NCBI GenBank assembly: GCA_002796325.1
Contig: PCXA01000018.1
Location: 124,001-188,000 of the forward strand
Length of the DNA stretch: 64,000 nt
Direction: 5' to 3'
Origin: Deltaproteobacteria bacterium CG11_big_fil_rev_8_21_14_0_20_47_16
GTDB lineage: Bacteria; UBA10199; GCA-002796325; 1-14-0-20-47-16
Shown: positions 48,297 through 54,524 of the stretch, one piece after another
How the letters are laid out: every line of letters begins with the position of its first letter
Position numbering within the stretch: the stretch's first letter is position 1
The notes under the pieces: model-generated
Told to the model about the DNA's origin: nothing
Database searches by the model: none
What the model saw: the letters and a program-made list of their open reading frames with translations, nothing else
Position numbers and translations under genes: made by a program

Positions 48297-48449
48297 CTAG
48301 TTGAAATTAATGCGCTTTTTTGAATCTTCAAAAAGTTGCACCCACGCGTTTCGTGTGATTTTTACCATCCCTCCCAAATTTGTGAGAATCGCTTTTTCAT
48401 CCACAACTTCCCAATAATGAAGGCAATTTTTTTCGGATGGGTTTGGCAT
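48297..48449 (-). CDS. Possible 50-residue protein
   Basis: An open frame from the ATG at 48449 encodes a 50-residue, weakly basic protein (EKNCLHYWEVVDEKAILTNL in the middle). The composition is protein-like and the stretch lies in an otherwise unassigned 249-base gap. The only SD-like sequence (AGGGAG) is about 17 bases upstream, which is too far, and no relative is recognised. The gene is therefore doubtful. Confidence 0.25.
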   Translation of the reverse strand: MPNPSEKNCLHYWEVVDEKAILTNLGGMVKITRNAWVQLFEDSKKRINFN

Positions 48450-48495
48450 GCCTGTTGCTTTGGTATCTCCCTGGAACACAACGAGGGAGGATAGA

Positions 48496-49656
48496 ATGAG
48501 TACCTCAATTAAAGTCGTAACAGTAATTTTTACAATCGTACTGATGGCCACATCGGTCAATGCGTCTGAGTTAAAGGGTGGTTACTTGAATTCTGCAACG
48601 CGAGAAGCAATGATTCGTGTCGATGACAATCGCGCTTCCATTCATTTATATAATAATCCGCTCCCTATGCAGTTTGGTGATGGCGAGTATCGCGGAACCG
48701 GAAAATTATTTGTCGTCTATTATTGGGGATGGACGCGAGAAGTCCGAGGGCGTTTTGTAGACCGTCAGGGCCACATGGTGGCTACCCCAAGCGATGGGTA
48801 CGACAAAGTGATTTATCTTAATCGCTATGGCAATATTACAGCAGCAGCTGGTTTGGATGATCAGGAAATTGCCGCATTTTTCCCACGTGATCAGCAACGA
48901 AACGTTGCGCTCGTTGCAAATGCACAGAAGCGCCCGCTATTTGCAGCGATGCGCTATTCATCAGATGTTTTATCAAAGATGCATGCTGCTTCAGATGAGG
49001 TTGCTCAAACCTATGCCATGAGTGCGGGTTGGATGGGCGGCTACGACGTAAAAAACTTTATGCAACAATTATTGGATCTATCTCAATCCCGAGAGGGGTC
49101 GTCCATTGCAGCAATGCGTAGCCTCTTTAATGTGCGTGCCAATGTAACAACCGGCAAAACTGTTGCCTTCGGTGTCTCTTTGGTTGCGCAGGGTGGTAAC
49201 GGTACCGGTGGTAGCAATCCCATTGGCCAAGGTGGTAACGGTACCGGTGGTAGCAATCCCATTGGCCAGGGTGGTAACGGTACCGGTGGTAGCAATCCCA
49301 TTGGCCAGGGTGGTAATGGTACCGGTGGTAGCAATCCCATTGGTCAAGGTGGTAACGGTACCGGTGGTAGCAATCCCATTGGCCAAGGTGGTAATGGTAC
49401 CGGCGGCAGCAATCCCATTGGCCAAGGTGGTAATGGTACCGGCGGCAGCAATCCCATTGGCCAGGGTGGTAATGGTAGCTGCGGTTCGGATTCTATTGCA
49501 CAAAGTGCCTGTGACCAGCTTAATAAATGGTCTCAGAATAGCTATGGTTATGCAGATGTCGAAATGAGTGGTGGTGGTAATGACGGCTTAACATCTCTTC
49601 CCAAGGCATGGTACTTGGATGCATTGACTCACGGTACCGTTCTGATGCTCAAATAA
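48496..49656 (+). CDS. Exported protein with seven to eight tandem 13-residue repeats
   Basis: 386 residues from the ATG at 48496, which has the SD GGGAGG about five bases upstream. A signal peptide (VVTVIFTIVLMATSVNAS, cleavage near residue 25) leads to about 205 residues of mixed domain. Then come seven exact units of GGNGTGGSNPIGQ and one degenerate unit, and finally a 50-residue C-terminal part with one cysteine in each flank of the junction. The Gly/Asn-rich repeats resemble flexible linker or surface-layer spacer modules. The repeats are 39 bp each with synonymous differences, so the array can change length. A substrate of the nearby T2SS is possible but not shown. Confidence 0.75.
   Translation: MSTSIKVVTVIFTIVLMATSVNASELKGGYLNSATREAMIRVDDNRASIHLYNNPLPMQFGDGEYRGTGKLFVVYYWGWTREVRGRFVDRQGHMVATPSDGYDKVIYLNRYGNITAAAGLDDQEIAAFFPRDQQRNVALVANAQKRPLFAAMRYSSDVLSKMHAASDEVAQTYAMSAGWMGGYDVKNFMQQLLDLSQSREGSSIAAMRSLFNVRANVTTGKTVAFGVSLVAQGGNGTGGSNPIGQGGNGTGGSNPIGQGGNGTGGSNPIGQGGNGTGGSNPIGQGGNGTGGSNPIGQGGNGTGGSNPIGQGGNGTGGSNPIGQGGNGSCGSDSIAQSACDQLNKWSQNSYGYADVEMSGGGNDGLTSLPKAWYLDALTHGTVLMLK
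49192..49503. repeat. 39-bp tandem repeat array (coding)
   Basis: Seven full 39-bp units (49192-49464) and one degenerate unit (49465-49503). Units differ only at synonymous positions such as aac/aat, ggt/ggc and caa/cag, and each carries one GGTACC site or its trace. The array lies wholly inside the exported-protein gene and keeps the frame, so it is a potential variable-number repeat. Confidence 0.9.
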
Positions 49657-49699: not shown

Positions 49700-49870
49700 A
49701 TGAAGAAAGCTCAAGGCGTTTTGTTGTATCCGGGAGTGGTGTTACGGTCCAATGGCATGATTGTAATGCCACGTGTGCCACAGTCCAAATCCAGTACCTC
49801 TGTTCAATCACGTGCTTTGTTGGTTACGCCTCGCAAGACCCAATCTCAAGTGTCATCCAAGCGTAAATAG
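49700..49870 (+). CDS. Possible small basic protein of 56 residues
   Basis: An ATG at 49700 opens a 56-codon frame rich in Lys, Arg, Ser, Val and Gln (MKKAQGVLLYPGVVLRSNGM at the start, ending KRK). No SD is visible. It lies right before the DnaA-box-like repeats. The composition suggests a nucleic-acid-binding protein or unstructured peptide, but it may be a chance frame. No family is recognised. Confidence 0.35.
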   Translation: MKKAQGVLLYPGVVLRSNGMIVMPRVPQSKSSTSVQSRALLVTPRKTQSQVSSKRK

Positions 49871-49886
49871 TCCAATTCTGAAAACC

Positions 49887-49919
49887 TGTGGATAAGTCTG
49901 GGGATAAGCCTGTGGATCG
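49887..49919. promoter_or_regulatory. Three DnaA-box-like elements at 12-bp spacing
   Basis: TGTGGATAA at 49887-49895 is the exact reverse complement of the DnaA box TTATCCACA. TGGGGATAA at 49899-49907 has one mismatch, and TGTGGATCG at 49911-49919 has two. The three are spaced exactly 12 bp apart and in one orientation. The following 60 bases are AT-rich. This is the pattern of a DnaA-binding cluster such as an origin or a DnaA-regulated site. Confidence 0.55.
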
Positions 49920-49960
49920 TGCCCGAAGCCCTAAATTTTAGTGCTTTTAGAGCAGAATGC

Positions 49961-49981
49961 ATGGAAATAAGTCATTTCCAT
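49961..49981. repeat. Perfect 8-bp-arm palindrome downstream of the DnaA-box-like repeats
   Basis: ATGGAAAT (49961-49968) and ATTTCCAT (49974-49981) are exact inverted copies with a five-base spacer AAGTC. It could bind a dimeric regulator or cap an RNA. Confidence 0.5.
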
Positions 49982-49990
49982 ATATTTAAA

Positions 49991-50015
49991 ATCAATGAGT
50001 TAGGTAGGCATTGAT
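49991..50015. repeat. 7-bp-arm inverted repeat downstream of the DnaA-box-like repeats
   Basis: ATCAATG (49991-49997) and CATTGAT (50009-50015) flank an 11-base spacer. Together with the palindrome just upstream it makes the 49870-50074 gap unusually structured; no gene is seen in that gap. Confidence 0.4.
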
Positions 50016-50074
50016 TAACATGCGCTTAATGCCACACCGATGTCATTTAAGGAAATTCTTGTGGACAGTGGTCT

Positions 50075-52684
50075 TTAAGTAGTGAGCGAAGAAAGTAGGG
50101 ATTGAAGCTGATTATATAAGGGATTTATTCCTTTCCATCGCAGATTTCCACTGGCTGTCTGATCCAAAACGCCCATGTGTTGTAAAAGTCGTAAGCCGTT
50201 TTGAAAAATAGACTTCGAGACCGCCTCGACATGGGGTCGTCCATCGCTTTTTTTGAGTTGGGTGCCGTATTGAATCAGGAGTTTGATCCACTGCCGCTCA
50301 GGGGCATCTTGAGGTCGCTGGGGTTGTTGCATGAATTGGAATAGGATGCGGTAGGCATCTAGATAGTTATCCATAACGGCTGCGAATGCCGATAACGGTT
50401 TACCAGCAATATAATCGGTCAGTGTGTGAAGGTGTTTGTCAATGGCACGACGGGTGCTGAAGTTGAATTCATAACGGAAGAGTTGCTTGAGTAGTTGATA
50501 TTCTGCCACCACTTCTTCAAATGGTTTTTTGGAATTGCTGGATAGCAGTTGTGCCAAGCAGGCGACGGATACAAAGAAGTGAATACCGGTATTCTTGGTG
50601 AAGTCCAGCATCTGTCGATGTGATTCGGATATGAAATAGTGTGCAACCGAGTGGGTTGTGTCCACTTGGAGGAGTTTGTCAGTGACCCATCGATTCACAA
50701 TATCCCGTAGTTGCATATCAGGCATGGTGCACAGTCCTGGAGAGCAGGGTGCCTGCTTCCAAGTTAGGTAGTCCAATAAGATACGTGCGTGGTGAATAAT
50801 GTCCTCAAATGACAGTGGTTTTGATTGAGATAGTAATATGGTTGCCAGAATGCAGGCCGGGGTAACGACCAACTCACGATTGATTGCATACAAAATCTTT
50901 TGTGAGGTGAGTTGAACCAATTCGGGTTTTTGTGTGTCTTTAATGTGTTTGGGGTCGGGATCGGCCCAGAGTTCAGCAGCTGTTAACCCCAATGAAATAG
51001 GTTCACCAAAGTTGAGATAGACGTGACCCCATCGCTTTCGAAAGAATTTTCCAATCCTCAAAATATCGCGAGCACCTTCGGCCGCTTTATTGCGACCCTT
51101 TAGTTCTCCTGCATAGCTTTTAACTTCCATGACTTGATCATAGCTGATGGATACGGGGATAAAGGCAATGTCATTGGACGCGCCTTCGCGCCAGGAATCT
51201 ACCAGCATGGAGAGCATGCCCAGTTTTGCTTGGGCCATCTTGCCGGTTCGGGAGCGCGTGCCTTCAATGAAGAATTCCTGACAGTATCCCTGACGCACAA
51301 GCTCCGTAATATAAGATTGAAAGACGACTTTATAGAGAGGGTTGCCGCTAAAACTGCGTCGTAAAAAGTAGGAACCGCAGAGGCGGAAGATGGGACCAAT
51401 CGGCCAGAAGTTCAAATTGATGCCGCTAGCGATAAAGGGGACCACAACATTGTGCGAATAGAGCATCGTTGAAAGGATCATGTAGTCCATATGACTGCGA
51501 TGGTTGGGGACGAGCACAACGGGTCCATTGGAAATGGCGCGCTTGAGTTTCTCAAGACCTTGCTCATCCACTGTAATGCCATCATACAATGTTGAGAGTG
51601 CCCAGCGCATGATGCGCGCAATGATTTCAATCATACTGTAGTGCTGATCGGCGGCAATTTCATTGGCATAACTGCGTGCCAAGTCTTCAACACTTGCAAC
51701 AGGCTTTCCTCGGTCTGATGCGATGTCATAAATCATGCGTTGGACGGGCTCGGCCTGGAGCACTTGGTCAATCAACCATTGGCGCGGTTTAATACTGGGG
51801 CCCGTGATAGTGGTGCGTTCAATTCGGAGTTGATTGAGAAGGGTGGCACGAAGTGACTTGGTTAATGCCGCAAGAGATGTGTCTTGGGGTTGGGTTTGTA
51901 ACCATTCTTGAACATTGAGTGGAATGCCGCATTTTGCAATTGCACGACTCTTGTAGTGAAGCCAAAAGAAAAAGAGGCGGCGCAGGGGACCACGGTTGTC
52001 ACGGTCACCCAATAGAAAAAGTGTAAACGCATTGGTGGGGCGTTCTGGGTGTTTATCCCAAATAAAGTCCTGAGGCACACAATAAACAGGTCTCGTATTT
52101 TTTTGAGCGGCACGAATCACTGCAATCAGTGGATCGTCATCCATATTTTCCCAATACAAGTCATCGTGAAAGCGAGAGGTCTTAAGACGGATGAGCGTGG
52201 GGATGCCTTGCTCAATGAGCGATTGCCACAGGCCATTTTGAATGGGTGACAAACTGCCTGCGTCGTGTCCGTGCATTTCCAAATACAGTCGGGCGATGCG
52301 TTTGCAATCTCCCCAACGTCGCCACAAAACCAGCGATAAATTATTGGCCAACTGTGGAAGTGGCATGTGGCGCTGGATGTAAAGATAGTTAAAATAGTTG
52401 AAAGCCAGTTGGCCAATGAGTGGTGTGGTGTAGACGATGGCGGCATCGGGCGGTAATGTGGCCATGCTTTCAAAGCTGTGTTCATCCACCTGAATCTTTT
52501 TGAAGAATCGAGGAAACGTCCACTGATGAGGGTGGTTAAACGACGTCGACATGGCCGCCTGATAGGCTTCCACTTCGGGTCGAATAGATGTGGGTGGGGG
52601 GGCTTCAGTGCCAGGCAGAAAGTGCACGACTTGCATGCACCAGCGCCACAATCGCTCCCCCCATGCCGTACGATGAAATGGCAT
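50075..52684 (-). CDS. plsB: Glycerol-3-phosphate 1-O-acyltransferase PlsB
   Basis: 869 residues from the ATG at 52684 (SD AAGGA); an upstream in-frame ATG at 52732 is less supported. The acyltransferase motifs are intact: the catalytic HX4D in NHRSHMDYMIL, then FIASGINLNFWPIGPIF, FFIEGTRSRTGKMAQAKLGM and IPVSISYDQVME. The protein is somewhat longer than the ~810 of E. coli PlsB, with the N-terminal helical region and the C-terminal domain both present. PlsB transfers acyl groups from acyl-ACP or acyl-CoA to glycerol-3-phosphate, the first step of phospholipid synthesis. It is divergent from mutL. Confidence 0.95.
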   Translation of the reverse strand: MPFHRTAWGERLWRWCMQVVHFLPGTEAPPPTSIRPEVEAYQAAMSTSFNHPHQWTFPRFFKKIQVDEHSFESMATLPPDAAIVYTTPLIGQLAFNYFNYLYIQRHMPLPQLANNLSLVLWRRWGDCKRIARLYLEMHGHDAGSLSPIQNGLWQSLIEQGIPTLIRLKTSRFHDDLYWENMDDDPLIAVIRAAQKNTRPVYCVPQDFIWDKHPERPTNAFTLFLLGDRDNRGPLRRLFFFWLHYKSRAIAKCGIPLNVQEWLQTQPQDTSLAALTKSLRATLLNQLRIERTTITGPSIKPRQWLIDQVLQAEPVQRMIYDIASDRGKPVASVEDLARSYANEIAADQHYSMIEIIARIMRWALSTLYDGITVDEQGLEKLKRAISNGPVVLVPNHRSHMDYMILSTMLYSHNVVVPFIASGINLNFWPIGPIFRLCGSYFLRRSFSGNPLYKVVFQSYITELVRQGYCQEFFIEGTRSRTGKMAQAKLGMLSMLVDSWREGASNDIAFIPVSISYDQVMEVKSYAGELKGRNKAAEGARDILRIGKFFRKRWGHVYLNFGEPISLGLTAAELWADPDPKHIKDTQKPELVQLTSQKILYAINRELVVTPACILATILLSQSKPLSFEDIIHHARILLDYLTWKQAPCSPGLCTMPDMQLRDIVNRWVTDKLLQVDTTHSVAHYFISESHRQMLDFTKNTGIHFFVSVACLAQLLSSNSKKPFEEVVAEYQLLKQLFRYEFNFSTRRAIDKHLHTLTDYIAGKPLSAFAAVMDNYLDAYRILFQFMQQPQRPQDAPERQWIKLLIQYGTQLKKSDGRPHVEAVSKSIFQNGLRLLQHMGVLDQTASGNLRWKGINPLYNQLQSLLSSLTT

Positions 52685-52793
52685 GGGGTCCTTGTAGAAA
52701 GTGTTGGGGGCTTTTTCAATCAATATATACAAAGCTATGACGGATTCGAGGTTCGGGCTTGACGGTTGGGAGGGGGCGCGTTACGGGCGGACC

Positions 52794-54505
52794 ATGTCCC
52801 GAATCCAGATTCTATCAAAAGAAGTCGCCAATTTGATTGCCGCCGGCGAGGTTGTTGAGCGGCCTGTGTCAGTGGTGAAGGAACTGGTTGAAAACGCACT
52901 GGATGCGGGTGCGACTTCAGTGACGGTGGACCTGCAAGATGGAGGCACCACACGTATTCAAGTGAGTGATAATGGCTGTGGTATGACCGCCGATGAGTTG
53001 GCATTGTGTGTGTTGCCACATGCCACGAGTAAAATTGGGAGTGCAGATGATTTGGCCCGGATTATGACCTTTGGGTTTCGGGGTGAAGCACTCCCCAGTA
53101 TTGCCGCTGTATCCCATGTGTTGATTACCAGTAAGACCCCAACTTCAGACAGTGCCGCATGCATTCGCGTGGATGCCGGGAAAATGGGTGCAGTTGAACC
53201 GTGTTCTGCGCCCGATGGGACGTTGATTTTGGTTGAGCATTTATTTCAGAACGTTCCGGCCCGCCAAAAATTTCTGAAATCAGAGCGTACAGAGTATGGC
53301 CATATTTTTGATTTGATTCAGCGTGTGGCGTTGGCCAATCCCCAAACACGGTTTGTGTTACGTCATCAAGGCAAAGAGACGCTGCGTGCGAATGTGACCA
53401 CTGAATTGCGCGGCCGCGTGGCAGAATTGTTTAGTGTGAATGCCGCCGAACAGCTTTTACCGTTTTCTGAGGATTCAGGTGGGGTGCGGATCAGTGGGTT
53501 TGCCGGGCGTCCCATACTGGCCAAGGCCGGATCGCCGCAGACCTATTTAACTGTGAATGGACGTGTGGTCAAAGACCGATTGCTCATGCATGCAGTGGGT
53601 GAGGCGTATCGCACATTTTTGCCACGCGAGCTGTATCCATTTTGTGTGGTGCAGTTGGAGTTGGATCCATCACTTGTTGATGTGAATGTTCATCCTGCCA
53701 AGGCGGAAGTGCGGTTTGTGCAGCCACAGGCGATGCATCAGTTGGTGGTGCATACATTGCGTGCCGCATTGCAACAGGCATCGAGTGATGCGATGACTTT
53801 AGGCAACAGCACTGCGTCGGCATCGCCTGTGGCTAGTTACGGAAATGATTCCCTCACGGGTCCGGCGTCACCCGCAGGCAGTTGGCCTGACCTACGTCCC
53901 CCGGCATCATCAGGAGAAACCCCACTATTCAATACCGAGGACATGCCGGCGTTGCGGCCCATTGGTGCGCTGGCCCGGACCTATCTATTATATGAAGATC
54001 CCAATGGTAGTTTGATCGCGATTGATCAACATGCTGCTCATGAACGTTTGGGTTACCTAAAATTAAAGGAGCGTTTTGCAGCGGCAGATTTGCAAGTGCA
54101 GCGCTTATTGATTCCAGCAGTTGTGGAATTGTCGCCGCGTGATCATGCAATGGCGTTAGAGTCGATTGAATTGTTGGGCCGTTGTGGAATGGAAGTGAAT
54201 GACTTTGGTGGCAATAGCGTTGTGATCAAGTCGGTGCCAGCACTACTGGCGAATACGGATCCCGTGACATTGTTGAAGCGCCTGCTTGAAGATTTGGCCC
54301 AATCTGGGACTACCACCAGCATGGATGTTGCGATTGATCATGTATTGATGACCATGGCCTGTCACCGCATGGTACGTGCTGGTGATTATTTGAGTGGTGA
54401 AGAAATTGTGGCATTGGCTGACGAAGTCATGGCCACACCGACCGCAGATCGCTGCCCACATGGGCGTCCCACCTGGGTGCGTATTCCAAAAAGTGAGATT
54501 GAAAA

Positions 54506-54524
<19 letters not shown>
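52794..54524 (+). CDS. mutL: DNA mismatch repair protein MutL
   Basis: 576 residues from the ATG at 52794 (MSRIQILSKEVANLIAAGE); two upstream in-frame ATGs (52701, 52737) would add unrelated residues. The N-terminal GHKL ATPase is complete (VERPVSVVKELVENALDAGA, ISDNGCGM-like VSDNGCGMTADEL, GFRGEALPSIAAV). After a Ser/Pro-rich linker the C-terminal dimerisation domain has DQHAAHERLGYL, ACHRMVRAGD, CPHGRPTWVRI and a final FYRK. These are the motifs of endonuclease-type MutL, but the last Glu of DQHAx2Ex4E is Leu. The 3' end overlaps miaA by 19 bases. Confidence 0.95.

Follow-up and report, generated by a model that had tools for sequence, protein, structure and literature searches.

The open-licence literature describes DARS and datA from E. 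coli and its near relatives, and published work places the DARS2 core in γ-proteobacteria with Fis (PMC4245941). B. subtilis is reported to be without datA, DARS1, DARS2, Hda and IHF (PMC13220808). In E. coli, DARS1 is located near uvrB-bioD and reads TAATACACA tgg TTATCCACA ggaat AGTGGATAA, and the core of DARS2, near mutH, reads TTCTTCACA act CTATCCACA gaaaa GGTGAATAA. The DnaA residues R285, R334, D269 and L290 have roles at DARS1 and DARS2 (PMC5742627), and double boxes separated by 2-3 bp are the usual DnaA target (PMC11317965).

At the level of the family, the element analysed here matches DARS1 and the DARS2 core in its box offsets (12 and 14 bp) and in the orientation of the boxes. Its copy in the source genome (G000) lies in the window, by which is meant the whole stretch of 64,000 nucleotides under study (G000:C8:124001-188000, from a contig of 270 kb). 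A preliminary description had proposed either a replication origin or a DnaA-controlled, regulatory site at this place; the first half of that proposal fell with the analysis of GC skew, by the refuting condition that the description had itself named, while the second is strongly supported by comparative evidence. The site belongs to a longer element, conserved over deep divergences, in which a DARS-type core is accompanied by a second motif.

The box array in the window

The arrangement on which the original proposal was based is confirmed. Three DnaA boxes are located on the minus strand, with starts at 49887, 49899 and 49911 (spacing 12 + 12 bp), and Tandem Repeats Finder reports an array of 12-bp period at 49885-49917. 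The boxes adjoin 140 bp of AT-rich sequence (64% AT versus 53% in the window), a composition equalled by 1.6% of 140-bp stretches. The two inverted repeats are present, with perfect 8-bp arms. The gap is free of genes and lies between convergent ones, a 56-aa ORF on the plus strand and plsB on the minus strand (Table 1), the element starting directly past the plsB stop codon. Single near-boxes are no more frequent in the window than in shuffles (61 versus 68), and hence only their arrangement is informative: tandem pairs at 12 bp with at most one mismatch occur twice in the 1.95-Mb genome, and the control with the reversed pattern gave none.

Table 1. Features of the site and of its flanking genes, in window positions.
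Feature	Position	Strand	Remarks
56-aa basic ORF	49700-49870	+	convergent to plsB; LYPGVVLR stretch at the same place in the order relative G004
R3 slot (inverted box, box I)	49873-49881	-	TCAGAATTG; degenerate, 4/8 positions mismatched
Box R2 (box II of the DARS-type core)	49887-49895	-	TTATCCACA; 0 mismatches to TTATNCACA
Box R1 (box III of the DARS-type core)	49899-49907	-	TTATCCCCA; 1 mismatch; 12 bp from R2
Third near-box	49911-49919	-	CGATCCACA; 2 mismatches; 12 bp before R1
Motif P copy	49958-49974	-	TGACTTATTTCCATGCA; degenerate versus TGCCTAAtaaTTAGGCA; 67 bp before R1
IHF consensus	49990-50002	+	AATCAATGAGTTA; perfect, in the spacer; p 0.01 in G000
L box slot	50060-50068	-	CTGTCCACA; weak in this copy
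plsB (glycerol-3-phosphate acyltransferase)	50075-52732	-	Pfam GPAT_C + Acyltransferase
mutL	52701-54524	+	divergent from plsB

The window copy is among the weaker ones, with a degenerate P and no recognisable R3, and its third near-box is an addition of G000 that is missing from the aligned relatives. The P copy overlaps the first of the two inverted repeats. The small basic ORF, for which no family match was found, seems to be a real gene; a LYPG-x-x-LR stretch was also seen by eye in G001, G002 and G005. Inside ORF 48448-49656, seven 39-bp tandem repeats that are 95% alike (49192-49477) encode GGNGTGGSNPIGQ repeats, and the protein of this ORF has no Pfam match. A 16S rRNA gene was not found in the G000 assembly (20 contigs, 99.75% complete).

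A conserved element within the class

At the plsB/mutL locus the element was recognized in 20 genomes of the class, belonging to 12 of its 21 families; in the other nine no element was found at plsB. It is located just 3' of plsB and in the same orientation, or beside mutL where plsB is absent, as in G022, in which no plsB was found. One further genome (G016) has a copy away from this locus. Identity of PlsB among the order and class relatives is roughly 30-42%. The tandem pair occupies the same place in all four order relatives that have plsB, and the first 240 nt after plsB contain, over 17 genomes, 45 TTWTNCACA boxes versus 0.86 expected, there being none after plsB in 14 other genomes of the class. 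The 20 carriers are these 17 genomes plus G013, G022 and G021.

The layout consists of a single DnaA box (L), a 17-bp palindrome (P) and, after 65-68 bp, two tandem boxes at 12 bp (R1 and R2), usually with an inverted box (R3) 14 bp beyond the pair. R3 is enriched at exactly +14, where 11 of 19 copies have it with two mismatches or fewer; the only other enriched offset is +23/24, in a few genomes of one family. The R2-R3 pair alone was tried as a search pattern and was too weak. In the relatives the L box is TTATNCACA, often followed 11-12 bp on by an inverted partner.

The palindrome, TGCCTAAnnnTTAGGCA / TGCCTAAtaaTTAGGCA, came out of an unsupervised search for palindromic motifs in the spacers of the 17 genomes, with a de novo score of 116.7 versus 29.6 ± 2.6 for shuffled spacers. 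It starts 65-68 bp before R1 in every genome, and the stretch between the two is conserved in length but not in sequence; the distance from P to L ranges between 26 and 97 bp. The two arms of P covary no more than in shuffles, and P therefore looks like the target of a protein rather than a hairpin. Of the 19 copies, 10 fit the loose Fis consensus GNNYANNNNNTRNNC. IHF was considered as a conserved partner and rejected, its consensus being perfect in G000 only (enrichment over the 17 genomes, p 0.18). In family f2 a gene of the HU/IHF family was observed directly beyond the element, on the plsB strand (L202 = G001:C59:22499-22759; L193 = G005:C28:562-822).

DnaA and its boxes

The residues of DnaA that contact the box (R399, R407, Q408, D433, H434 and T435) are identical in the G000 protein, which also keeps R285 (arginine finger), R334 (sensor-2), D269 and L290. 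A double box at 2-3 bp and a DnaA fit to read the standard box are thus both present, and the site is predicted to be a DnaA-binding cluster. Since double boxes are the usual target of DnaA, the specific evidence for DARS comes down to one opposed box, that at +14. The likeness depends mainly on that box, and could be a chance match at a level of a few per cent.

The second of the two tandem pairs in the source genome, a double DnaA box, TGTGGATAAGGTTGGGGATAA (G000:C5:28443-28463; L003:1501-1521), was observed about 150 bp upstream of a gene reading as nrdJ, the B12-dependent ribonucleotide reductase, with NrdR-box-like sequences in between. By analogy with E. coli nrdA, this box suggests DnaA control of nucleotide reduction. 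In G022 a double DnaA box lies upstream of a uvrB-like gene (L101 = G022:C17:23876); DARS1 also adjoins uvrB.

Copies outside the class

Sequence model R1 was made from elements of the class alone, and it matched full-length copies in genomes of the same domain outside the class. Sequence model R2 was built from 23 elements, and copies not used in building it were matched in G289 (E 1e-12), G379 (2.7e-9), G353 (8.9e-9) and G249 (1.1e-8), E-values of the element models being rough. Near-full-length matches with E up to 1e-6 were obtained in 14 genomes outside the class, seven of which are not in model R2, and 1.76 Mb of natural DNA gave no full-length match other than the elements.

The matches outside the class draw support from their neighbourhoods. 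The mutL neighbourhood is common to the window's class and to G379 and G249; mutL adjoins the element in these two genomes as it does, within the class, in G022. On the other side of the element, G379 and G249 have a gene resembling that of the DnaA inactivator Hda, which is divergent from mutL, so that both genes start at the element; an Hda-like gene also adjoins it in G108. All three Hda-like genes code for Bac_DnaA and Hda_lid domains. The proteins of G379 and G249 score 164 and 147 bits with TIGR03420. All three are under the Hda equivalog cut-off (194.8), and on that account they are perhaps a separate family of DnaA regulators. Each of the three Hda-like genes (L264:628-1368, L317:631-1380 and L320:1719-2459) is followed by a small zinc-ribbon-like gene. 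Elsewhere the element lies between murJ and mazG (G353), beside mazG with a MurJ-like reading frame, recognized by eye, on its other side (G215), or after recG-type genes (G153 and G289), with ndk also present in G153. The element is apparently ancient and occurs in distantly related bacteria.

Alternative roles of the site

A replication origin, main or accessory, is what boxes beside an AT-rich spacer with inverted repeats would first bring to mind. The genes dnaA and dnaN are absent from the window, as had been noted, and both are located on another contig, C1. The skew check places the switch there: the cumulative GC skew of G000 is lowest at C1:75,973, between dnaA and dnaN, and no switch exists on C8, where skew is positive in 27 of 27 10-kb windows. 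The minimum of G027 also adjoins dnaA, and skew is monotone on the element-bearing contigs of G002, G027 and G011 and, outside the class, around the element in G223 and G153; in the single-contig genome G289 the coarse skew sampling was noisy. With the minimum at dnaA/dnaN in G000 and G027, and monotone skew through the element in G000, G002, G223 and G153, identity of the site with oriC was rejected and an origin of any kind at this place is extremely improbable. From the skew minimum and box-like sites, the region C1:75.7-77.4 kb is probably the oriC of G000. The DnaA-box-like sites, at L001:1262-1334 and 2821-2840, lie in the dnaA/dnaN gap and upstream of dnaA.

Hairpins can be drawn in the spacer, and the site sits at a gene 3' end, as would a structured RNA or a transcription terminator in which the DnaA boxes had arisen by chance. 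Folding of either strand, however, shows no surplus over shuffles (z -0.25 and -0.67), there is no Rfam match, and arms of P without covariation, together with a P-to-R1 stretch kept in length and not in sequence, also argue against this explanation, which is very improbable. DnaA-dependent transcriptional control of a neighbour (mutL, plsB, the HU/IHF-type gene or the hda-like gene) would fit the f2 genomes, with their HU/IHF-family gene on the same strand after the element, and G379 and G249, with the element between the divergent mutL and hda-like starts. Against it, the neighbours of the element vary between lineages, and the window copy, like those of most class carriers, is found at gene 3' ends, between convergent genes, so that a promoter role is unlikely in the window; such control is considered rather improbable. 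The main rival is a datA-like or titrating site, which would bind ATP-DnaA and, by hydrolysis or sequestration, leave less of it free or active, an effect opposite to that of DARS. The L box and the R pair point in the same direction around an AT-rich spacer, as the essential datA boxes do (PMC5742627), and in the window copy three boxes share one direction and the IHF consensus is perfect, ihfA being present in G000. A search of six class genomes for an Hda homologue gave none, and hence another inactivator may be needed. datA, on the other hand, is without the 12/14 triplet, the IHF sites of the element are not conserved, and the opposed R3 box is kept in most carriers. A datA-like or titrating role is held to be unlikely.

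Proposed function and comparison with known systems

The explanation that we favour, with modest confidence, is that of a conserved extra-origin, DARS-like element that would regulate DnaA with the help of a partner protein at P. We infer the binding of DnaA, the factor at P and the direction of the effect on DnaA from sequence. DnaA would assemble on the R1-R2 pair, and on the inverted R3 where present, and would also bind the distant L box. A probably dimeric protein would bind P, about 66 bp away on the box-III side, and contact the DnaA oligomer, or bend or loop towards it. This would alter either the nucleotide state of DnaA or its supply. ADP release as at DARS is the most likely route, the layout of the core making it the best single guess. 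The altered state or supply would then tune initiation at the dnaA-dnaN origin, and in this manner the element probably helps to set the timing of the start of replication.

A broader proposal can be put forward only tentatively: L, P, 66 bp and a DARS-type triplet may together form an ancient DnaA-regulating element that extends far beyond the γ-proteobacteria, from which E. coli DARS would derive or with which it would have converged, and TGCCTAAnnnTTAGGCA may have a dimeric reader. If this were true, bacteria in general would use DNA sites to control the ATP/ADP-DnaA cycle. Because unrelated lineages, several in number, carry a DARS-type core, with an Hda-like neighbour in one of them, the generality of this control would become testable, and the element predicts an undescribed protein that would bind the palindrome.

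Among the described systems, datA of E. coli is likewise a non-coding extra-origin cluster, in which boxes of one direction flank a spacer (PMC5742627). It differs by having no 12/14 triplet, which was found neither in datA nor in 48 kb around E. coli dnaA-oriC, and by its IHF site, which is not conserved across the carriers of the element. The datA layout, an IHF site at constant spacing with boxes of one direction to either side, is not kept in the carriers, the IHF consensus being perfect in G000 only (test over the 17 genomes, p 0.18). The double boxes reported for the DnaA regulon of E. coli (Stringer 2024, PMC11317965) are also 2-3 bp apart and include a site at an nrd gene, which may be compared with the nrdJ-like gene here. 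Those are promoter sites, whereas the window site is flanked by convergent genes and keeps P at a fixed distance. The DnaA-box clusters of B. subtilis (Okumura 2012, as described in PMC13220808) are, by that description, likewise outside oriC and thought to limit free DnaA.

DARS2 has sites for other proteins on its box-III side, where the element has the putative protein site P. In DARS2 the proteins are IHF and Fis, and their sites lie at distances unlike that of P (PMC4245941, PMC8682772); DARS2 is without P and its 66-bp spacing, and the element is without a conserved IHF consensus. DARS1 shares with the element its non-coding, extra-origin position and extra sequence on the box-III side, but has no P, no distant L box and no adjoining mutL or plsB, and the window copy in turn is without a good box I, its R3 slot (TCAGAATTG) having 4 mismatches. 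P is found in neither DARS1 nor DARS2 of E. coli. When sequence model R2 is run on 66 kb of E. coli DNA, with DARS2, datA and oriC among them, DARS1 comes out at the top. The window site is, as DARS are, intergenic and outside oriC; at the level of the family the three-box core is R1-12-R2-14-inverted R3, and the place of the accessory site on the box-III side of DARS may be taken by P, at a fixed distance, with no enrichment of the IHF consensus.
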